From the NCBI GenBank assembly GCA_947179485.1, contig OX359246.1, positions 25,854,001 to 25,918,000 of the forward strand: DNA of 64,000 nt. The letters are read 5' to 3'. The DNA is from Allacma fusca (Eukaryota; Arthropoda; Collembola; Symphypleona; Sminthuridae). The notes under the pieces were generated by a model. It made no database searches. It was given only the letters and a program-made list of their open reading frames with translations, and was not told the DNA's origin. The position numbers and the translations under genes were made by a program. Each line of letters opens with the position of its first letter. The first letter of the stretch is position 1. Below are positions 33,157 to 64,000 of the stretch, piece by piece.

Positions 33157-33215
33157 AGGATTGTAAAATCTGTAAGTGTAAAGAATAGAAACAACAACAT
33201 AGCATGTGAAAATAA

Positions 33216-37236: not shown

Positions 37237-37642
37237 TTTGAAAAGTGAAAAAAATAGGACTTGAAAGTCGTTGAACTTGAGAAAACGTTTCGAAAAGTAC
37301 AATTTACACGCACAAAGTGTAAAAGAGGCAGTTGTAAGGGTGAGAAAACTGTCCGCTTACAATGCACGAGTTCGAAAACTATATCCCGTATATATGCACT
37401 ATACGGCAAATCTGTATGTAATATACAGAGCAGGCGGACTGCTATAGTTTCCCCGCTTCTTCCCTCCGCTCACGCAGTGAGGGTGGCTGGAGTGCACACA
37501 CGAAAAGTCTAAGTATACACTGTCTTGAACGTGCCACGCGTCTCTCTCTCTCACTTGGAGATGGACTCCATCTTAAAAATTTGAGAACTATCGCACTTTT
37601 GGATGAATTCCCGTTAAAATTTCGAAAAATTGGCGTAAAATT

Positions 37643-38022: not shown

Positions 38023-38448
38023 GTACCTATGTGTGCACCCCGTCTCACACTAGACTTTTGTGCCTCTGTAACATTTTTAGACTTGTAACCGGTTGAAATC
38101 CAATGAAATAATTTCAACCCTACCCGTAGCTCCAGCAGGTAAAGTTTTATCGACCCTGTTCCTTGCCGCCATTATTTGTTTTACTGACTCGTATCCTTTG
38201 GTAACGGGTTACTGGTTAAACCGAACCTGTTATAAACCGGGTAAGGTCCTGTCATTGATCTTAAACGAGGTCAAGTGATGGTCAAATATCTTAGATTGAA
38301 ACAAATCATTGAAGTAGATACCAGAAACTATTTAAATTTATTAATTTAGGATATTTTTCGAATTATGTAGTCCATTTACCATTTTGTGGCTAAATTTGCT
38401 TCATTATTTTGCAGCCTGTGTCTAAATATTTTCACCTAGTGATTATAT
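38023..38448. repeat. Host segment between two retroelements, duplicated from 21,190-21,548
   Basis: It begins with the GTACC target duplication of the small Gypsy element and ends GATTATAT exactly where the giant element begins. It matches 21,190-21,548 apart from an extra 74 bp or so (about 38,297-38,370). No gene. Confidence 0.85.
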
Positions 38449-38975
38449 TGTTACGTATCAATAATAAGAAAGGAATTACCTGAGTCAGAAATGCACGTAG
38501 GCAGTTAAACCTGACTCAGGACAAATCAACGGAAATGGAGCAAGAAATAAACAACAAAGAGTTAGAGTTAAGTAGGTTAAGTAGCGTAAGCACAATTAGG
38601 TATAAACAACAAATGTTAGCTGTAAGTTAGAGTTAGAGAAAGACAGAGAGTTCGAATTCAGTCTTCAACCTAACAACATCTCCAGGATTGGAACCCAGGG
38701 ATTGGCAATGGGTCCATTCCGTCCGGAATGGAACCCGCCACGGACATCAGGAATCCCACGTAGTGGATTCTCAAGGGAAGACAATTTCCAGAAATGGAAA
38801 GGATCCATTACCAAACTTAGTGTTAAATGTTAAGTGTTATAATTATAGTTTATGTCAGTTAAGGAACAATTATTAAAGGCCGAATAAAAGTGAACTACAC
38901 ACAGAAATCAAAGCAAAGCAAACCAAGCCTCATTAGTGATTAGCGCCATACCAACATCATGGACATTACGAGCAG
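38449..38975 (+). repeat. 5' LTR of the giant element (right edge approximate)
   Basis: The start TGTTACG is supported by the paralogous empty site. A TATAAAC word lies at 38,601, an initiator-like TCAGTC at 38,658-38,663 and AATAAA at 38,883-38,888. The right edge is placed just before the primer-like site at 38,983. It cannot be confirmed without the other LTR; further AATAAA words at 39,169 and 39,395 leave a longer LTR possible. Confidence 0.6.
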
Positions 38976-38982
38976 GGAATGA

Positions 38983-39000
38983 GGCGCCCGAACCCGGGAT
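38983..39000 (+). other. tRNA-Lys-like primer binding site
   Basis: GGCGCCCGAACCCGGGAT has the first 11 bases of the complement of the tRNA-Lys(UUU) 3' end, then diverges slightly. The T expected before GG is A here, so the tRNA's terminal A would be unpaired. An alternative start, TGGACATTACG at 38,960, has the TGG but matches no tRNA I know. Confidence 0.45.
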
Positions 39001-39176
39001 ACATCAAGTCCCTCTCTTTCTCAGCCGGGGAAGGGAGGGCAGATGTAACATGGTGTTTCTGTCAGGACTTCAGGTCACGGTAAGGGCCTGGAGTATCCAA
39101 AGGTCGGGGACCTGCGGATGACCCTGGATCACAGGAAAGTCGCTTTGTAGCAAGCATTTCCGTTGATTAATAAACT

Positions 39177-39254
39177 CTCTCGATGGAAGTATGGGCTCAA
39201 CTACCGGGCTATACATTGTATAGTACTATAACCGAGCACCCGAAACTTCGAGAG
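39177..39254 (+). other. Coaxial leader hairpin
   Basis: An outer stem CTCTCGA (39,177-39,183) pairs with TCGAGAG (39,248-39,254). An inner hairpin CTATAC/GTATAG with loop ATT (39,209-39,223) has the same centre. The arms between are partly complementary (GGGCTC with GAGC..CCC). A shared centre suggests one long RNA stem-loop of 78 nt. Confidence 0.55.
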
Positions 39255-39735
39255 AAAGTCAGATAAAAACAGCCAAAAAGTTCATCTCTCAAGAAAAATC
39301 GGACATCATCATCACGCGCGGATCCGGACAAGAAATTACAAGAATCCTAGTGCAGCACTATAATAGAAACTTTCGAAATGGCCATAGATTGTTTAATAAA
39401 AAGTGACTAGTGAGTTAGGCCCTTGCCTCACAAGGAAATTTTCGGGGCAAGGTGAGTACCTAATAAGGTGAGTAACATTTTTCTTTACTTGAATATCATG
39501 AGTTAGGGGCTAAGCATAACTTTTGTAAGTAGTTACGAGGAGCATATGATTTTTGGAGTAATTAACCAGAGATTATGAGCAAATCATAGGTTTAAATTAG
39601 AAAATGGTGCATATATTTGCATGTATTTCTGGCTTTCAGATTCACATAGTAGGTGTAAGTACTTACATTTTCAAAACAAAAATTTACTCCTTCCAATAGT
39701 ATAAATCTATCTCTATCTTTTTAGAAGTCTAGAAG

Positions 39736-41035
39736 GGCCGACGGAAATTGAGCACTAGACATAGGGAGCTTAGAAGGGCCGGATTGAGCACTAGGCATGT
39801 AGTATCAGTATTGTAAAGGGTACTATTTGGGACTGGAGGGCCGACGGAATTGAGCACAGCAAATAGTAGTCTTTCTCTTCGTAAGTTTAAGCCAGATTTT
39901 CAAAGGGCCGGATTGAGCGTGAAAATTTCTATAAAATCTTTACTCAAAATTCACTTTCAAATTATTTAGGGCTCTGTCAGGAGGACAGGGCTCAGAAATA
40001 AGAATTCGGAAATTTTTCAAAAACAATTTGAATTCATTTTTTTAAGTATTAATGACTCTCAAAATTTACTTTCAAGTTCAGGTTATGAACGCAATATGAT
40101 TTATCGTGTATTTTTAATTTTTTAGTATTCAAAAATAAATACTTTCTCATTTCACTCTAAAAACAGTTTCGTCTTCTAGGAATAAGTTAGCATTTGAAAG
40201 GCCGAGGATACGAGCGCAAATGTTCTTTAGAATTTCTTTTGACCTCCAAATTAACTAATTAAGGAGTCTAGGCTAAGCGGCAAATAATTAAAACGCTTTC
40301 ACTCCAAATTGCTTTCAATTATCTGAAGTGTAGGATTTACACGGATAAAAATAGGGATCTATCTTACATTTTTCTCACATTTTCATACTCCAATATTTCA
40401 CCTTCGTAGAATTAAGTTAGCATTTGAAAGGCCGAGGCTATGAGCGCAAATGTTCTTTAAACACTCTTTTGATCTCCAAATCATTTAGTTAGGAAACCTT
40501 ACGCTAGTAAGGTAAATAATCAAAACTTTTTCTCTCCAAATTACTTTATTTATCTGAGGTGTAAAGTTTACACGGATAAAAATATGAATCTATCATAAAC
40601 TTTTTCACATTTTCTTCCCTACTATTTTTTTCTTTTCTACCCGGAGGGCCGGATTGAGCACGGGGTAATTAGACAATCAATTTACCATGGTTTTGGTAAA
40701 TATTAGGAACTTAAAATTTTAATCTGAAGGGCCGGATTGAGCGCAGATATCAGATTTCAGTTAGTCATTTTGCAAATTTTACCTAAATAGCTCAGGTAGA
40801 GAGCGCAGGTACATCAGACCATCAAAAAGCATAGTTTTAAGGACCCCAAATTTTTCGGAAAGGCCGAGGATCTAATTGAGCGCCGAGGGAATTCGCAATT
40901 AGTTAAGTTTGACAAAATTTAGTCTCAAAGGCCGAAGTATAGTGAGCGGGGACACATTGGCATTAGGATAGAAACATACGTTTAAGAAAATCATAGTTTA
41001 ATTTAGCATAGGGATTGAAGGGCCGAGGCGTGAGC
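39736..41035 (+). repeat. Eleven dispersed GGCCG...GAGC motifs
   Basis: The pattern purine-rich tract, GGCCG, 4-12 nt, then GAGC followed mostly by RC has GGCCG at 39736, 39777, 39839, 39906, 40200, 40430, 40647, 40730, 40862, 40930 and 41021. Copies often read AGGGCCGGATTGAGC or AAAGGCCGAGG...GAGCGCA. Spacing is irregular and the sequence between copies is unrelated, apart from the 230-bp duplication carrying copies 5 and 6. Weaker variants continue to about 41,230. Confidence 0.85.
40150..40610 (+). repeat. Diverged 230-bp tandem duplication in the leader
   Basis: CATTTGAAAGGCCGAGG at 40,191 and 40,421 marks two units with a 230-nt period. The units also share CTCCAAATTACTTTMATTATCTG-like and TTTACACGGATAAAAATA stretches. 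Divergence is substantial, so the duplication is older than the insertion. Confidence 0.8.
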
Positions 41036-42407
41036 GCAATCATTGTTGTGTATAGGATGTAATTTCATACGTAGAATCCGAGAGGCTAGAGAGGCAAAGA
41101 AGTTCATAAGGTTAACTTGAATTGAGTCATCTCAAGCACGGAGGTGGTCGGGGAGGCCGACAAAAGCACCGATAAGCCTGTCACCTACTAGAGGTAATCG
41201 GAGAGGCTATGATTGAAGTACCGACATAGGCATGTGTAATGTATTGTACCCGAGCTGGACGGGGTTAGGTAACAGGTAGAGCTAACACCAGCAAGGAGGT
41301 TCACGGGGAGTGAATAGGATGACAGAGGACATTCCAACCACGGAATACCGCTTTAAAATCTTAGGCATAGGTTCCGGCTATGGATATGCATAAGGGAATT
41401 TCTTTATTTTCAACTCTTTTAGATGATTCATGGATGTTGATTTCATCATAAGGTTAGCTGATCTCGAAGGAATGTTTAGAATAGAGAGATTCAGCATAAG
41501 AAACCACAGACTCATGGGATTTGAGGACTGGTTATAGGGATAGGCATTCAGATATTTCCGGTGGCTTCGAAAATATTTGTCTACGACAGATACAAGCCTT
41601 GCTGATGGTAGGATCAGTTCAAGGAAGTTCTTAGGTACGAATTAGGACACGAAACTTATTTCCCCAGTTGCGAAATAATTAGTAGTGAGGAATACAGTCC
41701 TGGATAATTTGGGAGATTATTATAGGAGTATTTAGGGAAATTTAGGCAACACCCGGCCGAGTGTGAGCAGTGTTGACAGACAATAAGGCTGATATTTTAG
41801 GGAATAATTTTACGAATAAGTTTAAAAAGGAGATATAACAGGTAGTCTAGAAGGAGGTAGAGTTAAGGGTAATTTAAGGAGGTTTAGATGGTAAGAGAGT
41901 TAAGGTTTAGGGAAGTTTAAGTTTTTTAGGAGGAGTAAGTCTTAAAGGAGTTTAGGTAATAAGGAAAGTTAGGTTTAAAGAAGGATTTAAGTTTAAAAAG
42001 GCTTCGTGATAACAGGTAAATAGGTAGTAGAAGCTAGCAGTTAAAAGAGATAGAATTACAACAGGTTTCACAGGTTAGGGTCAGGTTTAATTTAGGAAGT
42101 ACAGGTTGACTTCAAGCTTAGGTTAAATCACGAAAATTAAGTTTTAAGACAGATCAGGCTTTCAATCTTCAAGTATTTATTTACAGTCTTCTTCTAAATT
42201 CAGCGCGTCAGTAGGATATAAGCATAAAGGCAATAAGTACCCAACGAAATTTTAGACACGGTTTAAGTTATAATTTGGATTAAGTTTTAAGGAAGGTTTT
42301 CAGGAATTCATTGGCACGCACTCTCAAACAAACCCAGCAATTCATAAATCAACTCAAACGGCTAGCATTTTCTCATACCACCCGAGAAAGTTAGAACGTT
42401 TTCAGGT

Positions 42408-45400
42408 ATGGATTCCAAGAGAAAACAACAACCATCTCAACGGAAGTCAACACCCGCACCTTCAACAACATCTCGAAGGACTACGCGATCAACTGGACCA
42501 GTGCCAGACAATGAAGAGAGTCTTGAAGTTGCTATGGCCAAAGCCAAATTGGAAAGAAAAATGGCAAAAGCTAAGGCAAAGGCAGCACGGGAGTCAGGGG
42601 ACTCCACCACCAGCAGTACATCATCCGTCTCGGAGAAATCGGTTTACAGAACCCCCGCAACATCTGCACATAGTCCAAGAGACTCGCAGGCGATGGGATA
42701 CCGAGAAAGTCCAGACAATAAGGATGAGGATGACGTGTTCTTGGACTCGGTAACAAGTCCCCACAGTGGTTCTGCCGTAAGTCCAAAAGGAACACCAACG
42801 CAACAAAAGGGTCCTCTCAGTAGACCCTCTCCAAACCAATCCACAGGACCATCGAGTACTAGAACTAGACTCGTCTTCGAGGATTCAATGGAAAATACGG
42901 GTACAGTCATCAGATCCACAATCGGAGAATCCGAGCAGGCATCGGGTACCCATAGTGGACCCACGATAAGCGGAACCCCGAGTGGAAGGAAAACCCACGT
43001 ATCACCCACGCAACTAGAATTACGCGACCAACCGCCTGTACCACCGGTAGATCCGGAAGGACAAGGCGAGGTCATAGGCGAATTCATGCGAAATGCAGCG
43101 GGACAGCCCATCTACGTGAGTAAGGATGCAAACCCAGTCATTAAAGAAATGTTGGCACAGTTCAATGAACCGGAGTCAAGACCAACAAGTAGTGCAGCCA
43201 CCTCATCTTTCGAAATCATCACGGATCCAGAGAGCAGTCACACGAGTTTTGAGAAGATTGAGCAACAGGCTTCTACATCAGCAGATGGACAGGACATTAC
43301 ATCACCCAACAATGCCGATGTCAATGGAACAATAAGACCTGTTGACCAAGAGGAAATTGCTCAACCAACGATTGCACAACCCCAACCGGATGCAGATAAA
43401 GAAGATAAAGAGGTATTGAACAACAACACTACTGGACAAATAGCTCCACACGTAGATCATCAGCAAGTAGCAACAACAAGTGCAGGTTCACAACAAGGGA
43501 ACCAAACCAAAGGTAGTACGGAGAGTGAGCGTGACCACACAACAGCGCAACCAAAAGTGCAACAATTACCTTCGAAAATCACACCAGCATTTTCTAACAG
43601 AAGCGACACAGTACGGCAAAGAACATTCAGCCAGGTGTCTGAAGCTTCAGTACAGGAAGATCTGATAACAGAACAGATACCACAGATCGTGCCAGTAAGT
43701 AACGAAGTAAATCTAGTGCAGACAAATCTCACACAACTGAGAATTCACACAGGTGTAGAGATACCTGAAGGGTGCTTCGAGGAGCTAACGCGATCGGAGG
43801 GACTTCAGAGGAATCTAAACGAAAATTTTCTCATAGTGACAGAATTGGAAGGACACTGGATAGAGGTTTACCACAGGTTAGCACACCACACCTACACAGG
43901 TACGGTCCAATGGACACATTTCTTTATTAGAATAGCAGAGATCATTCATAGGCGAAATTACAATCGATTGCCAACTTGGGACGAAACAGAAGAGTTGAGG
44001 AGAAGAGCACTCACTCATAGTAGAAACGTCAGGGAGAACATCATCATCCCAACCGAATTAATTAGAAATCTGCTAGAGAGACACGTACTTTCATTTGGTA
44101 GCAGAACAAGGCATCAAGGAGGCCAAATTTTCTTTAACGATCAACCTAGGTACACTACGGTAACTTATGCTAGAAGACATACAAGCATACAAGGTCATAG
44201 ACGACGTACTCGAGCTTATTCCAGTAGCGAAGAAAGGTCAGGCTCAGATCAGGACACGAATAACAACGAGACGGGCGAACGAAGAGTCGTAGACCCTAAT
44301 GGTACTGACATTTTAAGCAGGCATTTGAGGTACGATTCACGACACCCACCATTTTCACGAAATCCGATAACGGGTTTATTAGAACCAGCGTCAAGAGCAA
44401 CAGTAAGACCGACAGACATTTATGACCGACCAGAATTCGAGCACGACGCAGTTTATCAAGGACTACGACGAACAGATCTCATAGACCCCATACTACCCCA
44501 CGAAGAGGTACGCACGCCTCAAAGACCAAAGTTTGCTAGGAACTACATCGACCTTAATAGTCAACCAATAACCCAACCCCTCACAGGACCAACAGGTAAA
44601 CCCATCTCATTATCCAGAAAAATACGCAAAGGGCCACCGCGAACGTCAAGAAACAATCAAACAACCACTTCCAGTTCAACCAGAGAACCCAGCACAGCCG
44701 ACATAGCTGTTGCAGAAGAAATAAGGAAGAAATTTAGCGAAGGAAGACCCACTATAACGCAATTAAACAAGGTCAAAAGCCTTAGTCTAACATCACCTCG
44801 AGCAAATAGTGGGACAGATAGTGACGACCAGGTAAATCCGACAACAAGGACCCCTTCGTTCGGAAAGACACCTAGGCGAACCTACAGAATTCCCACAAGC
44901 CAGAGCAACGACTTTAACTCAAGTCTCACAAGCAGGAGACCAGTTCACAACCAACCAACAACTTCAAGCAATTCAGGTGAACAGGCACGACCGACGTCAA
45001 GTGAGCTGCCGCACAACAACTTAACCAGACCATCAAGAGACACCTGTAGCAGACCAAGTAATAGCAAGACCAACTCGACAACACCCAAGACGCACACAGG
45101 AGTCAAGACAAGTACACCAACGACAATTCGGGACCCCACGACCAAAACCGGAGCAACCCCGAGGTCAGGTAATTCTTGTCGCAACACCCCAGGGACAGCT
45201 GAACAAAGATTCACGCAGTACCCTGACGTAACACAAGACATAACTCTACAGGAAAATCCGGTACAGCTCACACCTGTCACTCAAGAACACCAAAGAGCAA
45301 CAGAAACTACACCCAGGAACCAACCAACTCAACCAAACTTACGGTTTAGGAATCAAACCATCAGAGACGAATTGGAAACTCCTACAGAAGAGACCCCATC

Positions 45401-48400
45401 TACTCATTTAGGCACGGTAGCCCGACCTACTCCAAGACCAAGTGAAGCTACAAGCAGATTATACGTTAACACAGAATTCAACGACGACGACGACGTCGAC
45501 TTCGTATCACAACGGGTATATCAGTCACCCGGAGGAAGAATTTACACTCACCCACCAGTCCATGCTTTACACGCATCAGCGTTGACAATCAATACAGTAG
45601 ATCTGAGAGGATTCGTACGGGCCGGACAGATCATCCGAGAACAGCGACCATCAGAAACAGTGGTGAGAACCATCAGAAACATCGACGGTACCTACTACCA
45701 GGCATTTAACAACCGAGAAAGATTTACAGTATACCAATCCCCAGGAGGGACACTGTACAACAGCTTACCTTTAGGTCGAGCAGGCATTTTTCGCCACATT
45801 CTGAGGGGACGTGACCTGGTAACCAGGACATCTAACAACGATAGGACCCTCATAGAAGGAGGAGAGCTGGTAACAGTCATAAACACCAGCCAACCTGAAA
45901 ATACGTCAAGTAGCAACAGGTCGTACACCCAAGGGGAAACACTAAGGTCACCCGTGGTACCGCCAGCGACAGCAACGCAACCTGCAACAACTATTGCGAC
46001 ACCACCCAGGCCCAGGGAAAGATCAGTAAATAGATCAATCAACCTCTCAACAACTACTACGACAACAGCAACCACCACGCGACCAACACCAACAGTAGTA
46101 AGGCCAACAACGACATCTCAAACCACGTCGACAGGTCAAGCAGGACCAAGTTGGGTTGACGACCCACGGTACAGCGTAAACACCTGGATTGGACCAAGTG
46201 GTAGAATTTACCTCGACGAGAACGACGCAACAGAAAGAAATCTCGTTCGCAGTCAGGCAACCGTACGCCAGGTAACACATTTGTGCCGAGTCAACGACAG
46301 GCGCAGAGCGAGAGAAGCAGCACATGAAGCAACTTGGACAGGTCAGGTGAGACGATTAATTTATTTCAATAGGGAAGACGACCTTATCCAACGAAATTTC
46401 ATACCAGCAATTGATGCTAACTTCGAAGCTGTAGCAGCTACAAGAACAGAATACGAAGAAATCATCTCGAGTGACGACCCACCAATAGCATTCCGACGAT
46501 TAATAATTAGAAGGTCAGAAGACCCAGACCAAGTTACCAGCTACATTGCTAGGAACTACAGACTTTACCATCGACACATCAACTTACCCAACGGAATACA
46601 CCGTCAAAGAATACCCGTAGCATTTTTTACAGGGTTAATAGATGAACACGACCATCAAGAGGCTCTGACCAGGTTGCTATACAATCCAGAAATAGAAGTT
46701 CTAGCCGAAACCTCTAGCGAAGAGGAGGAAGAGCAGGTACAAGAAAGGGAAAGCTCACGACCAACTCCACAAAGGGAAAACGAGAATCACAGGAGCAACA
46801 ACTCCGAAGTACACGAAGACGACTTCAGAATCGCGATAGATATCGAAGACTACGTCATACAAGCAGTTCCCGGCGAATTTGCTTTACAAATATCCGCCGA
46901 AGAACTTCAAGAAGCAACACAAAGAGCAGCCGAAAGGGCAGTAAATCCCGAAGGAGAAATTCAACTGGTAGATGAAGGCGGAATAGTACATTTCTTCCCA
47001 AGATTACAACTACAGGATCTTAATCCAGAATACCAGATAGTAATTACCAAGGATCGAAATAACAGAAAAAGACCACCTTTACGTGCACGTCGCCAGATAG
47101 GTAACAATAACCCACGACCACCAGGCCCAGGACCAAGTGGAGCAGGTCAAGGTAACCCACGTGCACCACGAAATAGCAACAACGGAAGTAACCCACGAGC
47201 ACCTCAACAAGGAGAAAATCCAGAACAGAGAGGAGTCAGAGGAGGTCGCCACATAGGAGGTAGAAGGAGAGCGAGAGACGAGCCTGGAGATTCAGGAGGC
47301 GACTCATCATCCAGCTCCAGCAGCGACGACTCAGACCAGAACAACCGCAACAACCGCGAAAATTTTTACGACCAACGACACGGACAACTAGTCCGCCGAA
47401 ACAATCTAGTCAACCAGTTGAACATCAACATCATCAACCCTTACATACCACCAAATCAACACAGGGTCATACACATCGAAGAGATACCAGTTGAACGACC
47501 ACCTGTAAGAAGGTATTTAGACGACGAGATGTCAACATTCATGTTTCCCAAGGTAGAGTTCAACCCGGGCGAAGATGACCCCGAAACAGCATTCGCAACA
47601 GCAGAACTCCAGACCAACAGATTTGGAGGAGACACGATAGAGACACGCATGCAATACGTCCAACTGATTTTCAGTCCAACGGTACGAGATTGGATCAGAA
47701 ATTGGATAGCAGAGCGAAGATTAGTGGAGCTCAGACCATGGGCAAATGTCAATTGGAATGACTTCAAGGAAGAATTTTTGCTAAGATACGCAATCACGGA
47801 CCCTATGATCCGTACTCTCATGGAAAGGCGTAAGATGCTACAGGATGAAGACCCATGTGCGTACATAGATGCAAAGCTAGCATTGATTAACAGAATTGAC
47901 AGACACCTTCCAGAGGCAGAAAAGATCCGTCTAATCCGAGCAGGATTAACACCCGAATACGTGGTGGCATGCCGAGGTTGGGAAGCAGACAACGTACCCG
48001 ACTTCATCTATAGCATCAAGAAATACCACGAGGATCGCAAGACAGATGGAGCAGAATCCATAGAGACAAGATTTGCAAAAGTTCAACAAATGTTGGAACA
48101 ATTAACCACAGGTATGAAGGCAGTACCAATGGAGACAGAGATAATCAAAGTAGCAGCCATACGGGAACAGCCGGAGTTCAAGAGACCAGAGCCACGCAAC
48201 AATGACCAACGCGGACGAAATTCAGGTCAAGGAAATTACAACAACTCCCGCAACAACAGCCCAGGCTACGAGAACAACAACAACTATGGAAATCGGAGTC
48301 GTAATGACAACAGGGATTACCGATACCAATCACCAAATAGGGACCGAGGAAATTTCAACAATAACAGACAGCGATCATCTACACCAGACAGATCATACAA

Positions 48401-52100: not shown

Positions 52101-55100
52101 AGGATGAAGCAGAAAACATAGAAGTTATAACTGAGAAAGGAGATGGGACAAAACAGTCTCACGCTCCACCCACAATTACAATTCCAACGTCATCACAATG
52201 CGCTGGGGAGGAAAACATGGACCAAATGACATCAGAACCCCTGGAGAAAATAAACTTTGACGACCATAAGAGGACAAAATCAACAACAATGGAAGGACCA
52301 GTTGAGGCTACACAAGCAAGGCAACTGACCACCACCAGTGTCATGAATCCGGACTCGGATGAACAGATGATAAAGAAACCGACAATTATGGAAGGACCAG
52401 TTGATGCTACTCAAGCCAGGCAACAGACCCTTACCATAGTAGTAGGCTCCAAGTCAGACCAAATTCCAGAAAATAAAATACAGGACGAGACAATAATGGA
52501 AATAGCAAACGAGGGAAGCAAGAGGGTTGCTGTCAACAAAAACACAACAGTAAACCACCCAGCTACCCGGTATGCCATCCCCGAGGAAATTCCGGAGAAC
52601 AGCCCAAAGAAGAATGAGGGACACGCCCAGAAGGAACCGATCCGGTCAACACTGGAAGGAAAAGACAGTGCGACGGAATCCATTCCGTCCGGAAATGACC
52701 CCACGACCAAAGATGACCAATTCAGATTCGAGGAGACATGGACGAATTCCAGGCCAGTCAGCAAACTCGAGCAGGACATCAAAGTGGAAAGAATTTTTCA
52801 ATTATCAACATCGACTGCACTATCTACGGAAGAAATCGCTTCGGTAGGTAGAACAGAAGATGTACATAATCCGAAAACAAATACTGATGATCAAGTTGAA
52901 GCCAGGAAGATTTCGGAAGACATCAAGACCTGGATGAAGATGATCCAACAAAGGTCCGCACTTTGGTACTCGGAAGAAAAACAAATACCTGCAAGTACAC
53001 AAAGGTACGCACCCATACAGAATCCAGAGGAAGAATTATCTCTACTAGCCAATTCAGGCCGAGAATTACGACAAGAAATCCGGGAAGGTGAAATTAAATT
53101 CACAAACGGAAGAATATGGAAATGTCAGCAGCTGAAGGTGCCCGGCAATGTAGCAGGTAAAGATACGCTACACACACCGAACGACTTTCACGCTGACCAT
53201 CCGACAAGAAGTGAAGATGAAGAGAGCAAAGGCACAGCCAAGGCTCCAGTCATAAAGTCACTTGTAGTGGCATATGCACTACAGGGGTGTGAAGTGACAG
53301 AGGAGAATCAGTCTACACACACGCCTGTGTGTAGGACATTGGAAGAAGAAAAACAAGTAACGCTATTGAATGAACACAATCTCAAGGAGATGCAAAAGGA
53401 TGACCCCGACTGCCTTCTCATTTTGGAAAAGATAAAACAGCTTCATAAACTTAATTGGAGGGAGCAAGAAAAGTACCGCAAGTATATATTAGACGAGGAA
53501 GGCATCCTGATAGTAATACATAAGGAGGGACGGAAATTATACGTGCCCAGGGTACTGAGAAATTTTTTACTATCCAAAGCCCATGACGGCATTTTATGTG
53601 GAGGTCATCTAGGATTTCAGAAAACCTTACACAGACTCAACAAGTCATATTTTTGGAAGAAGATGAATGTCTCAATTGCTAAATATGTAATGTCATGTGA
53701 GAGCTGTCAAGCAGCAAAATCCATGAGAATGAAACCAGCAGGACTTTTACACCCTATAAGGATAGAAAATGTAGGAGATGCACTATGCATTGATCTCATA
53801 GGGCCCATACAGATCAGTGTAAAAGGCAACAAATACATAATCATTGCCCAGGACTACGTGTCAAAATATGTGATAGCCGAAGCTATTCCAGATAAAACTG
53901 CGGAACGAATCGCAGAGTTTTTGCTGCATAAGGTAGTTCTCAAGTATGGACTGTTTAAAAACTTGCTGAGCGACGGAGGATCCGAATTCAGAGCGGAAAT
54001 AACTCAAGCATTACTTAAGCAATTAGGCATGACCCATTCCACTTCGACAGCATTAAGACATAATAGTGTAGGACAGATTGAAAGGATGGTACAAACTATA
54101 AGCACTATGCTGAGTCATTACACACAAGAAGACCAAGCTTTATGGTGTACTTGTTTACCGTTTTTAATAAATGCTTACAATTGCAGTCACCATGACGTGA
54201 CCAAAGAAACTCCTTATTTTATGATGTTTAGGCGACAACCCGTATATGATTTCAACTTACAGCTTTGTTTAAACAGTATCGACACTAATTTCATGAGTGC
54301 TGAGGAAGCAAAAATTAGACTGGACAAAGCTTTGGAAAAGATAAGGGAAAGACAGGAATATAGTAAGGAGTGGTACGACCGCAAGAGAAGGTTAGTAAAA
54401 TTTAAAATCGGAGAGACAGTCAGAGTATTCACGCCAACAAGAATAGTCGGAAAGAGTGAACGTTTCTTACACCCATACAAGGGACCTTTTGTTATCATTG
54501 AAGTTTTAGCCAAGGATAATTATATCATCCAGGACTTAAGGAACTCAAAGAAAAGACAAAAGGTTCACGTAGAAAGGTTGAAAAAGTGCCTCCAGCGAGG
54601 AGACATTGAGGACGAATTTAGCTACGACTTAGACTCAGATGTAATTGAATTAGTCACCAAAAGAAATTGGAACAAAGTGCCAGAATTTTCAAGCAGTAAG
54701 CCACGGTCAATTCTGAGAAATTCGACCACAGTAGACAGCAGTGAGAAGTCAAGCAAAAAGGTGACTTTTAAAGTGCCACCGCCCAGCACAACAGCAGGAA
54801 CTGGAGATTTTTCATCCGAAAGATACTCACACAGTTCAAATATTCCACCCCGGAGAGGAAGACAAGCCAGAGAGTTTTCAACCGAAAGCTACTCAGATTC
54901 GCAAATCACCCCGATCCCAGAGAAGAAAAGGCCCAGAGGATTTTCACAGCCGGAAAGTCTCTCAAAAGGTCAGGAAAACTCGCAAGGTTCGGAAGCAAGC
55001 AACAGTAACCAACGACATAGAGAGTTCTCAGCCGAGAGCTACTCAAAGTCAAAGGGTACCATACCAGTGGACGACGCTAGACCCGGAGGATTCAGAGGAG

Positions 55101-56881: not shown

Positions 56882-56891
56882 AAGGGCATGA
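56622..56891 (+). CDS. Small coiled-coil ORF F
   Basis: 89 aa starting MCPKRTFPAGLQEIAK, with heptads in LKLEKELKQVQEEIQRLREE and a charged tail. It lies 132 nt after ORF E, and that gap has several stops in this frame. It ends in TGA at 56,889-56,891, which overlaps the ATG of the next ORF as ATGA. It extends 10 nt past ORF2's stop. Confidence 0.42.
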   Translation: MCPKRTFPAGLQEIAKIHKRTLYYSVELTNRRLKLEKELKQVQEEIQRLREESRKFTEEATRKKRVSKPDDTPPGPGGRQEEQGQSKRA

Positions 56892-57178
56892 GCAACGCTA
56901 GGATCTTAACACAGATTCCAGACTGCGTTTGCTTTGGAGCGGATGAAGTTGAATTAAGAGTTGGCGAACAAGTCAATCTCATCAGCTATCTACACTACCA
57001 AGGAAGAAGAAGGTTACGACTCATAGGTACCTACACGATAGTTGCCCAAGATCTAAACCACCCAAAAATTTTATATCTTCAAAAGAATGACCGACAACAG
57101 GTCACAACGTTCGTCAGGGTCTCGAACCAACGAGTCCCGCCGACGAGAAGACGACCGACCAGAGGTAGACCGCGATGA
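56888..57178 (+). CDS. Small ORF G (96 aa) after ORF2
   Basis: 96 aa starting MSNARILTQIPDCVCFG, in ORF2's own frame, two codons after ORF2's TAA. Its ATG overlaps ORF F's TGA (ATGA). The first 70 residues look like a small beta-rich domain (VELRVGEQVNLISYL, RLRLIGTYTIV, KILYLQKND). The tail is Arg/Pro-rich. ORF3's ATG lies within it in another frame. It could be made by reinitiation after ORF F or ORF2, or as a read-through tail of ORF2. No family recognised. Confidence 0.55.
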   Translation: MSNARILTQIPDCVCFGADEVELRVGEQVNLISYLHYQGRRRLRLIGTYTIVAQDLNHPKILYLQKNDRQQVTTFVRVSNQRVPPTRRRPTRGRPR

Positions 57179-60100
57179 CAAGGATAGGACCCGATATTGG
57201 GCACAATACGTGACCCAAACAGATATCGAGCCACCCCAGGCGAAGATTCTACCGAATGCAGATACAGGAAGATTGGAAGCAGTACACCGCCTTGACGGAA
57301 GAATTCCCAATCGCATCATCATAAAAGGACGAGATGAGAAAGGAACCATCATTCATTCAATATTGTTGGGAGCTCTCAAAAACGGCAGAGAGTTGTCAAT
57401 CAATTTCGGGACTTACAAGAGAGAACCTCACTACTGTGGTTCCATACACTTCCCGGAAGACCAGAAAGATATTGAAGATGGAGTAAAGGCACCAGAGGAA
57501 CTAGTCTACCTATTTAAAGGACAGGACTTTAACCCCACACCAATCCGGAGGAAACCTCCAAATTGTAGACTACGGAACCGACAGCCAGGAGATCCATGGT
57601 TAATACAACCGTACAAGACGGAAAAAGAGGTAGGAAACAACCTAATACCAGACGGAGACTACCCAAGGGACCCATGGGCTTACAAAGATAGTCTACAAAA
57701 AGAAAGGGGTAGTACAACAAAGTACTCTGAAAGAAGAAGATTCACGGATAATCAGGATTTCAGGACAACAAGAGTACACATCTCCAAAGTAAGCGAATGG
57801 CCAACTCCACAAGAGGAACGGGAACGAATGGCCCGGGAGGAAACGGCCAGACGAATAGACAGAAATTACGGACCAGCCAACCAAGACGAACCGGAAGAAA
57901 GGAGAAGAGATACGCCAAGGAATGCAGCCAACCTAGCATTCAACCCGCCAATTGGAAGAGGACGAGGGAAAGCAAGGGAGACCCGAGAGGAAGCCAGACC
58001 AGGAGGATCAAGAGGAAGCTCCAGAGACGGGTACAGCTCCAGGGACTCTAGAACACGGAAACGGGAACCTGACTCTTCATCCGAAATCCGGAAACGAAGG
58101 GAAAGCGATAGGTCACGTAACCGACAGGACAGTCCACCAAATGCACGGATACGAAGGGACAGGACTCCAACGCAACCACAACCCCCGAGGGAGGTCAGAA
58201 ACAAAACAGAGAGAGAGTCACAGTTGGTCACACCAATAGCCTTACCAGTACGAACGTACACGGAGGCGGTCAAGACACCAACACCAACAATACTCACCAG
58301 AGTCGACCCAACACCACGACAACCAGCCGTCATTATCGTACGAGCCGAGACGCCTACGACACCGCCGGAGCCCATCCCACCACCAGTGCATGTAACACTC
58401 TGGAGCGACGAGATGGAGGAGGAAACGGTAGAGCCACCTCGAGGACCAGAGACAGACGAATCATCCTCAGAATCGGAAGAAGAAGACGAAGAGGAGGAAA
58501 TGACGATACCACAATGCGCTAAACAAGGATGCGAAAGGCCCCGACACGTAATTACAACAATTAGAGGCCCACAGGTGCAGGAGGAATGTGAACACCATCA
58601 CAAAAAGCGCCTGAAGAAACAAAAGAAAGTTAAGAAAGAAATACGAAAAACGGTGGCGGAACTGTTTGGACCGACACAGATGGTCAGCCCAATTCCGTCA
58701 GGATGGCCACGAAACCTCGTATGTATCCAAGAGGACTCAACACGAGCAGGCCGACACGAAGAACTGATCAGGAAAATAAAGGACCAGGAACAACTAATCC
58801 ATCACCTAGGCTTATGTAAGATGGACACTTCAGCCATGCAAGTGCAAAAAGATAAGTTAACAAAAGAACTAATGGAACACCGTCAGAAATGGCTCGACTG
58901 GAGAAAGACAGTAAATTTTCTACAAGTCTGCAGGGAATCTCAGATTGACCCAGCTACGAAAGGATTTCCGATCACAACGAGAGGTTGGAGACCTAGTCCT
59001 GCCACGTCAACAGCAACTTCCGGAGAGCTGGAGCGAGTGATTGCTCAGGAAAATTCTTCAGTCCAAGAGAATGCCAAGACAGCAGTATCAGCACAGGATA
59101 TGCCACCATCACCAGGACAAACTGTCGAGATTGCAACTTCAGATGCATTTATACCAGGACGATACCAACCAAATCTCAGTGACACAGAAGACTCCAACGA
59201 GACCGGAGGAGACGACGAGCAGAACATTAGCTCAATTTCAGTGCATTCAGCCAACACGGACGTAGCAGATAGTCACCAACTTTCTCTGGCAGACTTCGCA
59301 AACTCACCTCAGTACGAGACCATTATCATAGACGGGGACGACGAGGAACACACCCAAGCCAACGCATCCATCCAGACCCCACCTCACACGCCAGAGATGG
59401 CAGCTCAGGCCGGCGGAGGAGGAGGAGGACGCGGAGGACCCATTCCAAGGATCGGTAACAATGTGTTCTCAACACTTCTCATTTTGGGGTTAATAACATC
59501 TGCAATAGGTCACCAACATGGAAAAAAGCAGTTGAAAGACACGGAAATGCAGATGGAACCTAACCCATACCCATGGTCACCACAACGCCCGTGGTGGGCC
59601 AAAATAGACGAAATGAGTCCGGTCAATGCAGAAGGCCACGACTACACCCATCCCAGCTTCACGAACGCGGAAGACGAGGACGAGATAGGACACTACGACC
59701 CATACGATTTACCAGACTTCCCACCAGCATGCAACGCAGCACCCCGTTACCAGGCCTTTGGCTCTGACACTGCACGAAGACTATGGAAGAATAGCGTCGT
59801 GAAGGGTGTAGCAGGCGTTGTAGGAATCTGTGCAACAGGAATCGCAGTGATGGGGGTCTATGTATCATCATTTATGAAAGCCATCAGGTCAACTGGAATC
59901 CCACCTCAGACGGTCAAAATTCCACAAGATTGGGTACTCATCGAAGCACAACTTCAGGACCAAAGACCAATCTGGATGATAATGCCCGTCAACGCCAGTG
60001 AGGAGAAAGAGATGGAGGAATTCCTACGTGACCCGGGCAAGGCAGCGACAGCGTTACCAGGAGTAATTACTCCACGGAACGCACATTACCTGAACGAGAC

Positions 60101-63100
60101 TTCACCAGCAAAGCTCTGGAACCAGGCAGTGAAAGAAGAGATGGCCACGAAAGAAAAGAGGGAACGACGGCACGCCCCAGAACCAACGTCAGAGGAGGAG
60201 GACCGACGACAGGTGGAACGGGACCGTCTGAAGCTACCCCAAGTTATCTGGATCATGTCAAACGCCATCAATAGAACACACCACCTAGCTCAACAGGCTT
60301 TGAAAGGAATCGCCATAGGATTCTTAACGAAATATGTGCCACTACCCCTAGATTGGAAAATCGAATTTTTCGATAAATATGAAGGTGAAATACAAAACGT
60401 AATAGGTGAGGTAGTACAGGAGGCACTGACACACGAACCAACGGCTAGAAGGACCAGAAGAAGCATTGTCACAGGCGACCATCTAAAACAGGTGCAACGA
60501 CAAATGCAGACGGACCCACACACCTTAACACAAGGAGAAGACTACGGCCATCCGATACGAGATGTTGCTATAGGTGAAGTAATCTACTTCATGCTCGCAA
60601 CCACCTTAACGGACGCAAATTGGACCATCACCCTTCTCATTCCACACGTCTATAATGGCGTAGAGCACATCGAGGACGATGAGCTTCACCAATGGGAGGT
60701 AGAGACACAACCCAGTGGGCTCCATGACCACCCGCTATTCCTGAAGGAGGAGGCAAAACAGGCCCAAATACGGAAGAAAAGGACAGCTTTCGTAGGACCA
60801 ACTAACGCATGGACACCAATGGCCTACAGTCGAGAGTTCCTGAAGAAACAACTCCAACAAATGTTGACGCAAGTAGAGGAAGAAGAGACAACTTCATCAT
60901 CTTCAGGCCGACCTACAGGAATCCTACAACAACTGGTAAAATTTTTTATTAGAATAATATTGTACATTGCCACCACCTTCGGAATGGACACCGGAAAGGA
61001 TAAGCACCCAATCCTAAAAGAAGCCACACCACAACCAACAGAGGAACCGGCTTCAATCTCAGAAGAGGAATGGATACTACCAACTTCGGAGATATCCATT
61101 ACCTCCAATGATGAAACACCACAACCAGACAGGTCAGGTAGACCAGACATCGTCGATAGTACACCACTGGACCAACTCTCAAGTATGGTGGCAGGATTGT
61201 CATCAAATAATGCAGCAGCTATAGGACTTCCTATGAGCGAAGAATGCATCTCATGTCAAGCAGCGCCCATCTTCCAGGCTCTACTCCAGGACTCCGGATC
61301 ATGGAGCTGCAGAAGGTGCAGCCACAACAACACAGCACAAGCAACTACAGCCACCCCAACGCTTCAAGGCGCAACAGCAAGAGTCTGTAGTCTATGCCGA
61401 GACGGAGTCGGATCCATGGCGCTAAGAGACAGCAACAGGAATTGGAGATGCGTGGAATGTGACAGCATTTTGAAAGAATGGGGAACGGCAGAAGAGCAGC
61501 CACCACAGGCCGAAAATACGACCGAATCGGATTCACCAAGCTCACCGGAGCCTGAAATTTTTTCACATTTGTGTAATGGAATCAGGACAACAACCACGAC
61601 GAAAATACCTTGTGAAAGTTGGACATGCGGGACCTGCCATCTCACCACCCATTCACGCAAGAAAGAGAAAACAGACAAGGAAGCCGAGGAAAGGTACGAG
61701 AGACTGAAAGGACTTCCAGTACAGTACGTCCGACGAACAAGACCCGAATTAGACCGAATATTCGGACGCAGCACATTACCCACCTGCTCATTTACCATGG
61801 CAGGGAGATTACAACAAGTACGACAGCAAAAACCAGCCACAAAAGATAAGGAGAGACCGGGACAGAAAATCAGGTCAAGAAGCGTCTCCACCGAGACACA
61901 AATACCATCCCGATTGGATGAAGAAAACCCTCCGGAGGCAAGTAGATCGCCCTCCGTAAATATCAATAACCTCAACAGCCGAGACACCTTAACCTCACCA
62001 GGTGAAAATGCCAGGAAAAGGAGGAGAGGTCGCCAACGAAGGCGAAGACACGGAGATGACCATGAAAACCAGGAGGAACCGGAAGTAGATGAACTACGGG
62101 AACCGGACGGACCACCTGGATACCAGAACGATCCTAACGTGCGATTTATTGACTTGTCTAGCGCGCTTTTTCACATTGACAACCATGGCTGGATGGTCGG
62201 TACAGGATGGGAAAGAAATCAACCTGAGACAGTCATCTTCACACACCCAGACCACGCACGAAGATTTCAAGACTTGGACGTGGTACAACGATACATAAAG
62301 GACCTGAAAGAACGAATCCAAAATCCACTGGATCATACACCAGACAATTCACTGGACGACACGTTAGATGACATCTCATTGGATGAGCGAAGGCAACGTC
62401 ACCAACCACGTCAGGACCTTAACCAACTACAATGGAACATCCCACTGACAGGAAGGAATCGAGAAGTGTTCCGCAGATGTGGAAAATGTCGGAGACAATT
62501 CCCCGAAGACCCGGAAAAATTTCCAGCATGTGACCGAGAAAGGAGATACGATCCGACCCCAGAACAACATTTAGTTAGTTGGGTCAATAGAATGTATCGG
62601 GAAACCTTCATAGGAAGACTGCATGCACACCCTTTAAACAGACAACCCCCTCAAATTAACTTGGAACAACTCCAAAAGGCGTTGAACACAATTCAAAAGC
62701 CACCCGTCAACATCAGAGAGTCAAATCAAGAATACTACGAGCAACAGGAAGGTATTGACTTCAACGACAGACGGGAAGTCATCCGGGAACGACGAGCTCT
62801 GTTATACGAGGCAATGGACAGACCAACGGACTTTCGCCGCCTAGACGCAAGGGAAAGGGACATCCTACTACTATACGGACAAACTCGGAGGAACATCCCA
62901 ATGGAAAATACCCGCCTGGAGACGATGGCAGGGAATCTCAGCATCTCCCCCGGGGCAATGATTCCTAGGCTTTGGACAATCTTGTTCAACGGTCAGCAAG
63001 GAAGTCACCGAGGAGCGACCATCCCACCTAGACTGGAATGCAGAGAACACCAAGGAACGCTTCACGGACTAACGGGAAATGAAATACGAAGTCTACTCAC

Positions 63101-64000
63101 ACGCATGTGGTACGACATAGGATCACAGCCAACATGGTTGGAGCAACAGACGTGGATGGAGAGCTTCCTGGTAAAAGGTGAAGCAATCGCCCCACGAGGA
63201 GAGAAAGCCTTGGAGATGTTGGCAGACATACCTCCGCACTTACTCAGCTTCACGGAATTCGCAAGCATGGCAGAGAGGATGATAACCCTATACCAACAGG
63301 AGGCAGCGATAGAGGAATGGCAAGGCTTACAATCATACAATCAGAGCACCGGAACCCGACCAAATCAAATTTCAGAAATATTACAGGAAATAGGGCAATG
63401 GGAGGATTGGATGTTCGCAATGACAAGCGCAGCTGAAGGAGAGAAACCAACAAAACTTCATGCACAAAGAAAGGCGGGAGGAGTCATCACATTTCGACAG
63501 CCCCGAGGAGCGGGAAGGTTTCTCTACCTAGACGAACTCGTGACAGTCAGAATTTGGGAGAAAGAACAATTTCACCGGATACGGGAAAGAATTAGCGAAC
63601 GACCAGCGGGACCCCATTATCAACCCTACACCATGAGGGAACAAGACGAACGAAGACCTGGAGTGACTTCAATACATCTAGTAAATCAGGCCATAGAAAG
63701 ATTTCAAACACCATTCTGGCAGTCATTAGTTGTGGAAGCCAGGTTAGTAGAAAGAGAGTTAGAAAACCTAGTCCACACGCTGGGAGAGCGCACGGACGTC
63801 GAGATCATCTTCAGAGATCCCGGACAGGATGTCATAAACACGGCTCCTAGAGGAGACCCAGTTTACACGACAAGACAAATGCCGTACCTTTCCATCTCAA
63901 TACCAACGGAAAGGGAACAACTCATACGAGAGCTGCGGAGGACACGGTACAACGCGGAACGAGATCTACTTCTAACAAGGACTCACCCATTCGTAGTACT
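57087..64000 (+). CDS. Giant element ORF3: novel polyprotein, open at window end
   Basis: From ATG 57087 I read every codon to the window edge without a stop: 2,304 codons, 3' end missing. Visible regions: an N-terminal domain (to about 250) and an Arg/Ser-rich stretch (about 300-350). Next come an acidic run and a Cys/His cluster (Cys 477, 482, 501, His 503-505), then a coiled-coil-like segment (about 555-620). Hydrophobic segments lie at about 792-812 and 907-929. NxS/T sites are at 969, 1003, 1062 and 1178, with furin-like RERR (about 1025-1028) and RTRR (1122-1125). Another hydrophobic segment is at about 1283-1300. Three CX2C-X17-CX2C-type ribbons lie at 1387-1517, and a long globular-looking part runs from about 1690 to the end. 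Overlaps ORF G by 92 nt. An envelope-like role for the middle is inference; no family is recognised. Confidence 0.88.
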   Translation, partial: MTDNRSQRSSGSRTNESRRREDDRPEVDRDDKDRTRYWAQYVTQTDIEPPQAKILPNADTGRLEAVHRLDGRIPNRIIIKGRDEKGTIIHSILLGALKNGRELSINFGTYKREPHYCGSIHFPEDQKDIEDGVKAPEELVYLFKGQDFNPTPIRRKPPNCRLRNRQPGDPWLIQPYKTEKEVGNNLIPDGDYPRDPWAYKDSLQKERGSTTKYSERRRFTDNQDFRTTRVHISKVSEWPTPQEERERMAREETARRIDRNYGPANQDEPEERRRDTPRNAANLAFNPPIGRGRGKARETREEARPGGSRGSSRDGYSSRDSRTRKREPDSSSEIRKRRESDRSRNRQDSPPNARIRRDRTPTQPQPPREVRNKTERESQLVTPIALPVRTYTEAVKTPTPTILTRVDPTPRQPAVIIVRAETPTTPPEPIPPPVHVTLWSDEMEEETVEPPRGPETDESSSESEEEDEEEEMTIPQCAKQGCERPRHVITTIRGPQVQEECEHHHKKRLKKQKKVKKEIRKTVAELFGPTQMVSPIPSGWPRNLVCIQEDSTRAGRHEELIRKIKDQEQLIHHLGLCKMDTSAMQVQKDKLTKELMEHRQKWLDWRKTVNFLQVCRESQIDPATKGFPITTRGWRPSPATSTATSGELERVIAQENSSVQENAKTAVSAQDMPPSPGQTVEIATSDAFIPGRYQPNLSDTEDSNETGGDDEQNISSISVHSANTDVADSHQLSLADFANSPQYETIIIDGDDEEHTQANASIQTPPHTPEMAAQAGGGGGGRGGPIPRIGNNVFSTLLILGLITSAIGHQHGKKQLKDTEMQMEPNPYPWSPQRPWWAKIDEMSPVNAEGHDYTHPSFTNAEDEDEIGHYDPYDLPDFPPACNAAPRYQAFGSDTARRLWKNSVVKGVAGVVGICATGIAVMGVYVSSFMKAIRSTGIPPQTVKIPQDWVLIEAQLQDQRPIWMIMPVNASEEKEMEEFLRDPGKAATALPGVITPRNAHYLNETSPAKLWNQAVKEEMATKEKRERRHAPEPTSEEEDRRQVERDRLKLPQVIWIMSNAINRTHHLAQQALKGIAIGFLTKYVPLPLDWKIEFFDKYEGEIQNVIGEVVQEALTHEPTARRTRRSIVTGDHLKQVQRQMQTDPHTLTQGEDYGHPIRDVAIGEVIYFMLATTLTDANWTITLLIPHVYNGVEHIEDDELHQWEVETQPSGLHDHPLFLKEEAKQAQIRKKRTAFVGPTNAWTPMAYSREFLKKQLQQMLTQVEEEETTSSSSGRPTGILQQLVKFFIRIILYIATTFGMDTGKDKHPILKEATPQPTEEPASISEEEWILPTSEISITSNDETPQPDRSGRPDIVDSTPLDQLSSMVAGLSSNNAAAIGLPMSEECISCQAAPIFQALLQDSGSWSCRRCSHNNTAQATTATPTLQGATARVCSLCRDGVGSMALRDSNRNWRCVECDSILKEWGTAEEQPPQAENTTESDSPSSPEPEIFSHLCNGIRTTTTTKIPCESWTCGTCHLTTHSRKKEKTDKEAEERYERLKGLPVQYVRRTRPELDRIFGRSTLPTCSFTMAGRLQQVRQQKPATKDKERPGQKIRSRSVSTETQIPSRLDEENPPEASRSPSVNINNLNSRDTLTSPGENARKRRRGRQRRRRHGDDHENQEEPEVDELREPDGPPGYQNDPNVRFIDLSSALFHIDNHGWMVGTGWERNQPETVIFTHPDHARRFQDLDVVQRYIKDLKERIQNPLDHTPDNSLDDTLDDISLDERRQRHQPRQDLNQLQWNIPLTGRNREVFRRCGKCRRQFPEDPEKFPACDRERRYDPTPEQHLVSWVNRMYRETFIGRLHAHPLNRQPPQINLEQLQKALNTIQKPPVNIRESNQEYYEQQEGIDFNDRREVIRERRALLYEAMDRPTDFRRLDARERDILLLYGQTRRNIPMENTRLETMAGNLSISPGAMIPRLWTILFNGQQGSHRGATIPPRLECREHQGTLHGLTGNEIRSLLTRMWYDIGSQPTWLEQQTWMESFLVKGEAIAPRGEKALEMLADIPPHLLSFTEFASMAERMITLYQQEAAIEEWQGLQSYNQSTGTRPNQISEILQEIGQWEDWMFAMTSAAEGEKPTKLHAQRKAGGVITFRQPRGAGRFLYLDELVTVRIWEKEQFHRIRERISERPAGPHYQPYTMREQDERRPGVTSIHLVNQAIERFQTPFWQSLVVEARLVERELENLVHTLGERTDVEIIFRDPGQDVINTAPRGDPVYTTRQMPYLSISIPTEREQLIRELRRTRYNAERDLLLTRTHPFVV
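61245..61637 (+). other. Three zinc-ribbon-like repeats in ORF3
   Basis: Pairs of CxxC separated by exactly 17 residues occur twice: Cys 1387/1390 with 1408/1411, and 1434/1437 with 1455/1458. Each second pair is preceded by Trp-x. A third copy (Cys 1496 with 1514/1517) keeps the spacing and the Trp but has Ser for the first Cys. This fits small zinc-binding ribbons in tandem. Confidence 0.65.

Follow-up and report, generated by a model that had tools for sequence, protein, structure and literature searches.

Can a single retroelement carry three open reading frames (ORFs) of more than 2,200 codons each, and if so, where does it end and what else does it carry? The question is raised by the right-hand part of a 64-kb stretch of the genome of the springtail Allacma fusca (C8:25854001-25918000, here called the window), in which an earlier note had described, from the letters alone, a retroelement of more than 25.5 kb with its long terminal repeat (LTR) starting at position 38449. 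The feature is a complete, recently inserted giant Ty3/Gypsy retroelement of a family that we term A; taken together with the mechanism proposed below, this reading is likely. The element spans C8:25,892,449-25,924,277, a total of 31,829 bp with an internal region of 30,625 bp, so that its giant size holds. It is arranged in the order LTR, 3.4-kb leader, gag, pol, ORF3, ORF4, 4.3-kb 3′ region, LTR. The window includes most of it, and the remainder lies in the adjoining 10 kb directly to the right (L009).

Boundaries, copies and recent activity

The 5′ LTR occupies positions 38449 to 39050 on the plus strand (602 bp, TGTTAC...GTAACA) and recurs with 602 of 602 bases identical at L009:5676-6277 (C8:25923676-25924277), 5.7 kb beyond the right window end. 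Both repeats are flanked on their outer sides by ATAT, a 4-bp target-site duplication at 38445-38448 and L009:6278-6281. The start given in the earlier note is thereby borne out, and the 3′ LTR that it proposed to look for downstream has been found together with the duplication. Its primer site has to be moved: since the LTR reaches 39050, GGCGCCCGAACCCGGG, which is probably what was meant, lies inside the LTR. The presumptive primer binding site is TGGTGTTTCTGTCAGGAC, which directly follows the LTR at 39051-39068 on the plus strand; family B, a sister family introduced below, has TGATGTTTCTGCCAGGCC there. No primer tRNA match was obtained for TGGTGTTTCTGTCAGGAC, the window being without a tRNA gene for comparison. 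At the other end, the purine stretch AGAAGAGGAA stands immediately 5′ of the 3′ LTR and is also present before the B LTR examined. The 4.3-kb 3′ region has no long ORF.

The genome was searched with LTR, reverse transcriptase (RT) and ORF3 queries, all of which give lower bounds for copy number. With a 512-base LTR query, 40 matches were scored of 93 candidates, and these were paired by us into 17 same-strand pairs and 6 singles. The start-to-start spacing of the pairs has a median of 31,183 bp, with 12 of the 17 within 30.9-31.6 kb and the remaining five at 20.2, 25.7, 26.0, 29.7 and 34.2 kb. Within the 16 pairs other than that of the window copy there are 0-3 differences per ~600 bp (K ≤0.005), and 3-base gaps in two pairs. 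ATAT is duplicated in 14 of these 16, or 15 of 17 with the window copy included; at the two pairs for which the script reported no duplication, one LTR match ends 3 bases early. The LTRs of other copies differ from the window LTR by up to 9%, suggesting that several sublineages moved recently. Judged from these repeats, the family is recently active.

The RT query (104 scored of 2,124 candidates) returned at least 21 A-like matches at 96-100% on the amino acid level and at least 83 B-like matches at 91-92%, and the ORF3 query (104 scored of 222) returned at least 26 A-like matches at 82-100%, some of them partial, and at least 78 B-like matches at 49-54%. Family B is a sister of A in the same genome, and its gene order, in the copy examined, is that of A. 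In 55 of the 78 B-like matches scored, the ORF3 frame is open for at least 2,201 residues. Two B giants stand in tandem at C1:24.79-24.83 Mb (L010-L013) with one LTR in common; the unit is 28,192 bp, the LTR 573 bp, ATAT follows the last LTR, and the 3′ parts of the two are identical over 9,175 comparable bases. A further A copy is split by 200-N gaps at C9:28867330 and C9:47037668 (L059:6231 and L061:3669). The break falls exactly between element bases 18042 and 18043, the two halves point in opposite directions and are separated by 18 Mb, and the LTR and 5′ part are 99% alike to the window copy and the 3′ part 97.5%. The probable cause is a break in the scaffolding, or else a contig misplaced or inverted on C9, a sequence of 48.06 Mb that is itself probably X2.

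Gag, pol and two further genes

ORF1 (42408-49151), ORF2 (49043-56881) and ORF3 (57087 to the window end at 64000) follow each other on the plus strand without a nonsense codon, and their sizes of 2,247, 2,612 and at least 2,304 aa are those first reported; the complete ORF3 has 2,331 aa, with its stop at L009:80-82. An origin of these frames by chance was rejected, the probability of each being stop free lying at ~10^-47 to 10^-70 from base composition alone, with 59-168 stops in each of the other five frames. ORF1 is gag. It has an N-terminal low-complexity extension of ~1,600 aa rich in S/T/Q/N/P/R, a gag/capsid-like domain at about 47691-47951 (Retrotrans_gag, E 0.0011, below the Pfam cut-off) and, at its very end, a CCHC zinc knuckle at 49041-49091 (Pfam zf-CCHC; 22.3 bits on the last 647 residues against a cut-off of 20.8, and 20.7, just below it, on the whole protein).

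ORF2 is pol, in which Pfam places protease (PR, 49271-49567), RT (50318-50800), RNase H (51017-51400), the H2C2 (53543-53722) and core (53777-54052) domains of integrase (IN) and p58_C (54482-54586). Its extra length is made up of a ~700-aa insert between RNase H and IN and a ~760-aa C-terminal extension. The order PR-RT-RNase H-IN matches that of Ty3/Gypsy (Metaviridae), and the best PDB match of pol is Ty3 Gag-Pol (1.8e-99). A tree of 41 RT rows, which holds the sequences found in this analysis and leaves out the named Ty3/Gypsy clades, joins A and B as sisters (100/100), with a branch 1.3 changes per site long leading to the pair; support for placing them next to two unnamed proteins is weak (87/47), and the clade within Ty3/Gypsy is left open by this tree. 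The Ty3/Gypsy assignment of the earlier note thus stands, with a long branch of the element's own. A possible −1 frameshift signal lies just before the gag stop at 49118-49146 on the plus strand, where GGAAAAC is followed 7 nt on by GGGGG-ACGCA-CCCCC. In B the gag-pol overlap is 43 nt and has an in-frame GGGAAAC at the place of GGAAAAC in A, and GGGGGACGCACCCCC is found 7 nt after the heptamer in both.

ORF3 and ORF4, the latter a plus-strand frame of 235 aa at L009:657-1364, have features that may point to the secretory path. Three hydrophobic segments were read in ORF3 at about 59451-59507, 59808-59864 and 60915-60971; in the middle part of the protein, two such stretches are similarly placed in A and B and a third is placed differently. 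In seven aligned copies (3 A, 4 B), the block TVKIPQDWVLIE, the sequons NAS, NET and NWT and the furin-like sites RERR and RTRR are invariant, and a third furin-like site, RKKR, is variable. ORF4 begins with a signal-like segment, contains a hydrophobic stretch rich in A/G and carries a membrane helix close to its end. A Pfam match of ORF4 to Protocadherin (E 0.00057, below the cut-off) covers residues 145-201, which are the membrane helix and its surroundings, and was judged to be due to chance.

Searches with ORF3 found nothing at 1e-3 in Pfam (four weak matches were far below the cut-off), no relative in PDB (two eIF3J sequences at E 0.42 were disregarded), no match in 6,189 candidates from 5.8 billion proteins, no relative in PHROGs (one match at E 0.031 was disregarded) and no occurrence in the contigs of IMG/VR and GTDB, which contain few animal elements. 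Neither ORF3 nor ORF4 had a relative among known envelopes in Pfam, PDB, PHROGs or the protein search.

The selection on these genes was estimated by the Nei-Gojobori method, comparing A (window and L009) with one B copy piece by piece. The dN/dS ratio was 0.20 for gag, 0.10 for the first 420 pol codons, 0.29 for pol from residue 821 on (insert, integrase, tail), 0.17 for the first part of ORF3 and 0.13 for ORF4, all of them rough, since dS between A and B is near saturation (1.4-2.9 where finite). In the second part of ORF3 dS is saturated, and pN is 0.286 against a pS of 0.786. Throughout gag, the first 420 pol codons, ORF3 and ORF4, pN is well under pS. The last ~600 pol residues (window ~55050-56881) differ, with pN at 0.43-0.49 against pS at 0.44-0.61 across windows; they show no clear constraint and may be fast evolving or weakly constrained. 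ORF3 and ORF4 are thus without detected relatives, yet by this A-B comparison they evolve under purifying selection.

Hairpins in the leader

ORF4, the 3′ LTR and a further feature, an array of hairpins in the leader, are additions to what had been described before. The leader (39051-42407) holds 13 copies of GGCCG on the sense strand and one on the opposite strand, and 11 of the 13 sense copies lie in a predicted RNA hairpin. The array extends from 39726 to 41045 on the plus strand, with hairpins at 39726-39763, 39767-39799, 39829-39865, 39896-39928, 40190-40224, 40420-40454, 40637-40669, 40720-40752, 40852-40891, 40920-40957 and 41011-41045. Each would have an outer stem of 5-6 pairs of free sequence, an internal loop and a GCCG/UGAGC stem with a bulged A and a G.U pair. 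Of two two-copy tandem repeats in the window, one of 145 bp is at 22610-22899, and the other, of 230 bp at 40183-40614, sits in the leader and duplicates one hairpin.

The case for the fold rests on covariation. In an alignment of 11 A and 6 B hairpins (A2), 91.2% of paired cells could pair against 72.8% after shuffling, and the covariation score was 0.540 against 0.172, a value reached by none of 500 shuffles; slid controls gave at most 0.113. All six outer pairs are changed on both sides, and RNAalifold, given no structure, recovered the same fold minus the outermost pair. At five homologous A/B hairpin sites found by blastn, both partners of a pair have changed with pairing preserved in three cases (C-G to A-U, G-C to C-G and U-A to C-G), pairing survives a change on one side in one case, and two outer pairs are lost.

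A model built from the hairpins (R1) was run over 114 kb on both strands. At E ≤10 all 20 matches were in leaders and in sense, 17 of them training sequences and 3 new. Among the motif copies outside A2, at 41155 and 41755 in A and at L011 9506 and 9985 in B, the model recovers only L011 9985 (E 0.012). There were at least six R1 matches in each of 18 more A leaders and two more B leaders, and the hairpin recurs in all 21 other leaders examined. At E ≤0.01 over 153 kb from 23 sources, each of the 227 matches is a sense match within a leader. An alignment fitted to the structure (A5) took in the best 150 matches, of which 28 are distinct, and gave 94.3% paired and a covariation of 0.544 against 0.182 in shuffles, with the G.U pair retained in 26 of the 28 distinct matches. 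In Rfam the leader repeats had no match at the gathering threshold (window and L009) and none at E ≤1 over 38449-42500. Among the papers retrieved on packaging signals and tandem stem-loops in retroelements, none had a title or abstract opening about a similar array. Packaging hairpins occur in the leaders of retroviral genomes. An array of ~10 hairpins at the front of a 31-kb RNA suggests multiple binding by Gag or an export protein, and we infer that it may mark the long RNA for packaging or export.

The leader also has splice-like sites, which were scored with unfitted weights at a listing threshold of 3. Two donor-like AAG|GTGAGT sites lie at 39449-39473 on the plus strand, with first intron bases 39452 and 39468, ~400 nt into the leader and before the hairpins, so that splicing from them could leave the array in genomic RNA only. 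At least one is present in 18 of 18 other A leaders, and both are in 17. The gag ATG itself is held in CAG|GTATGG (42403-42411, plus strand), which is conserved in 16 of the 18 and also in B and by its position could be an acceptor. Upstream of gag there are 32 ATGs in A and 40 in B.

Proposed mechanism, alternatives and related elements

The mechanism that we propose was drawn from the sequence, and its steps are given in falling order of confidence. The LTR would make one RNA of ~31 kb. The integrase would prefer ATAT. Pol would be made via −1 frameshifting at the end of gag. The leader RNA would fold into the 11 hairpins, several copies of which may be bound by Gag/nucleocapsid or another protein of the element, and the very long genome would in this way be packed or exported. 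ORF3 and ORF4 may enter the secretory path and act as an envelope-like or membrane-assembly module, because of their signal-like and membrane segments, sequons and furin-like sites. Last, the donor ~400 nt into the leader may be spliced to sites further on, in which case the hairpins and the 32 upstream ATGs would be removed from mRNAs but retained in genomic RNA. That this amounts to a separate giant animal lineage, which packs or exports a ~31-kb genome by ~10 protein-binding leader hairpins and adds a secretory module unrelated to known envelopes, is put forward tentatively.

Several observations weigh against this mechanism, in which splicing, frameshifting, packaging, export and membrane targeting were each read from the sequence. 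Besides the near-saturated dS and the pol tail noted above, the count of double-change pairs in A2 (6 against 4.5) was matched by 61 of 500 shuffles, and two of the five A5 measures were no higher than in shuffles. Single hairpins are weak: of three that were folded, one takes the consensus fold, with 13 of 200 shuffles as good, one takes it partly and one folds otherwise. AlphaFold2 models of two ORF3 parts were unusable (mean pLDDT 28.5 and 35.4), and the presumed ORF4 ectodomain is without cysteine or sequon, unlike a usual envelope. GGAAAAC in A is not a canonical slippery heptamer, and the folding energy of the 49-nt frameshift stretch does not stand out from that of shuffled sequence (z of −0.87 for A and −0.62 for B). 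As for splicing, B has a weaker AAG|GTAATA at the like place, and its sole strong donor (L010:1685) is elsewhere. CAG|GTATGG scores 9.3 as a donor in both A and B and below 3 as an acceptor, and no acceptor above the threshold precedes ORF3 or ORF4 of A. Should CAG|GTATGG act as a donor, the hairpins would remain in spliced ORF3/ORF4 RNAs, the leader-splicing step would fall and the upstream ATGs would need another answer.

A reading in which the two later genes have a more definite role has a serious claim, somewhat short of an even chance. The element would be an endogenous retrovirus in the narrow sense, with the ORF3 middle part and/or ORF4 as a true envelope and spread between animals. 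The signal-like start and C-terminal anchor of ORF4, the conserved hydrophobic segments, sequons and furin-like sites of ORF3 and the ATAT preference, which is common to Drosophila 297 and 17.6, are what one would expect from it; the envelope searches described above gave no relative, no usable fold was obtained, and ORF3 did not turn up in the viral and genomic contigs, with their few animal elements. The opposite view, that an ordinary Ty3/Gypsy element has grown by low-complexity linkers and captured sequence and that ORF3 and ORF4 are inessential ballast, is improbable. The gag N-terminus and pol tail do appear to be of low complexity, and pN is near pS in the last ~600 pol residues, but ORF3 is open in many copies, pN is well under pS in ORF3 and ORF4, and the ORF3 block and the NAS, NET, RERR and RTRR motifs are kept in all seven aligned copies. 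The selection test largely refutes it.

The hairpin array could also serve translation, as an entry site or a shunt past the upstream ATGs, or act as DNA like the insulator repeats of gypsy, where multicopy leader repeats are protein sites; we regard this pair of roles as rather doubtful. The ATGs before gag call for some answer, and the acceptor that would remove them scores poorly; no point was counted against a translational role. The role as DNA is opposed by stems that covary while their letters change freely, by the retained G.U pair and by the single orientation of all 227 matches. That an assembly error or chance brought ORF1/2 and ORF3 together has a negligible probability; misassembly had been named as a danger in the earlier note. 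One other A copy is split by gaps on C9, but the window contains no N, its LTRs are identical and flanked by the target-site duplication, 16 more LTR pairs exist beside it, and the B copy has the same gene order; the assembly is an 80-fold HiFi assembly, according to the part of the genome note consulted (PMC10427803). The recurrence of the element, which the earlier note had suggested looking for, is thus also what argues against misassembly.

The preferred reading, that of a giant Ty3/Gypsy element with a packaging or export array and a secretory module, was compared with known giants. Burro (GYPSM1) of planarians, as described in the part of PMC6431247 consulted, shares with the element a Ty3/Gypsy-type LTR organization, a length of >30 kb, much extra coding length and an invertebrate host. 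Burro, by the same source, has one ORF1 polyprotein of 4,873 aa in which an env-like region separates gag from pol, motifs of the BIR, BCL2, MATH and ankyrin types and an internal region of up to 25 kb, whereas the element has separate gag, pol, ORF3 and ORF4, no such Pfam domain, a 30.6-kb internal region and 0.6-kb LTRs. Membership of Burro was rejected on the separate ORFs and the lack of a BIR, BCL2 or MATH match in Pfam. Ogre of plants is another giant of the Ty3/Gypsy type, and its additional ORFs likewise have no known function; its size comes mostly from LTRs of 1.9-6.5 kb around an internal region of 11-13 kb, as given in the same part of PMC6431247. Membership of Ogre was rejected because the LTR here is 602 bp and the host is a springtail, not a plant.

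For the proposed export role, there is a precedent among LTR elements in Cer1 of Caenorhabditis elegans, in which a spliced RNA encodes an extra protein, CERV, needed for export of the unspliced genomic RNA (PMC10309623, in the part consulted). The terms "stem-loop," "response element" and "packaging signal" do not occur in that text, and Cer1 is likened here by description only. The best database relatives of pol are "K02A2.6-like" proteins of the pseudoscorpion Cordylochernes scorpioides, at 31-44% on the amino acid level over parts; in five relatives inspected, two of them from Cordylochernes, the matches fall in protease, RT, RNase H and IN. ORF3 was unmatched in all retrieved proteins related to pol, and gag was matched at the zinc knuckle and in marginal capsid stretches. 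Errantiviruses (gypsy, 297, 17.6) have a plan of gag, pol and an extra ORF and a 4-bp duplication with an AT-rich preference, and gypsy has leader repeats. The element differs from them in having no detected F-type envelope and in being three to four times larger. The overall frame is thus of the known giant Ty3/Gypsy kind; what is new in the element is its size, the module formed by ORF3 and ORF4, and the array of hairpins.

The surroundings of the element are a minus-strand array of genes resembling those for wax-ester synthase/DGAT, with three C-terminal domains above the cut-off in a domain search (window 1549-4447 and 12157-13815; L009:7890-9596). The 76 bases ending at ATAT (38373-38448) are 96% alike to 21477-21552, suggesting that the giant was inserted into one copy of a different repeat. 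At ~33200-37300 on the minus strand there is a second Ty3/Gypsy element, of normal size and with interrupted frames for gag, protease, RT, RNase H and an integrase zinc finger; in the RT tree it groups with a Plutella element, not with the giant.

No account of the element was found in the literature searched on giant LTR and springtail elements, a scope outside which most subscription papers fall, and no size record is claimed; the words "repeat" and "transpos" are absent from the genome note (PMC10427803). Elements of this type were traditionally thought to be limited to about 10 kb by RNA length, reverse transcription and packaging, and the 30.6-kb internal region exceeds even the 25 kb given for Burro (both from the part of PMC6431247 consulted). 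From the four long open genes and the nearly identical LTR pairs, it is evident that the family has spread with elements this large. The hairpin array suggests a specific and testable way in which such a size may be managed, and ORF3 and ORF4 add proteins that are under selection and have no detected relatives. A. fusca eliminates its paternal genome (PMC9630974, in the part consulted), which makes it an unusual setting for a mobile element.

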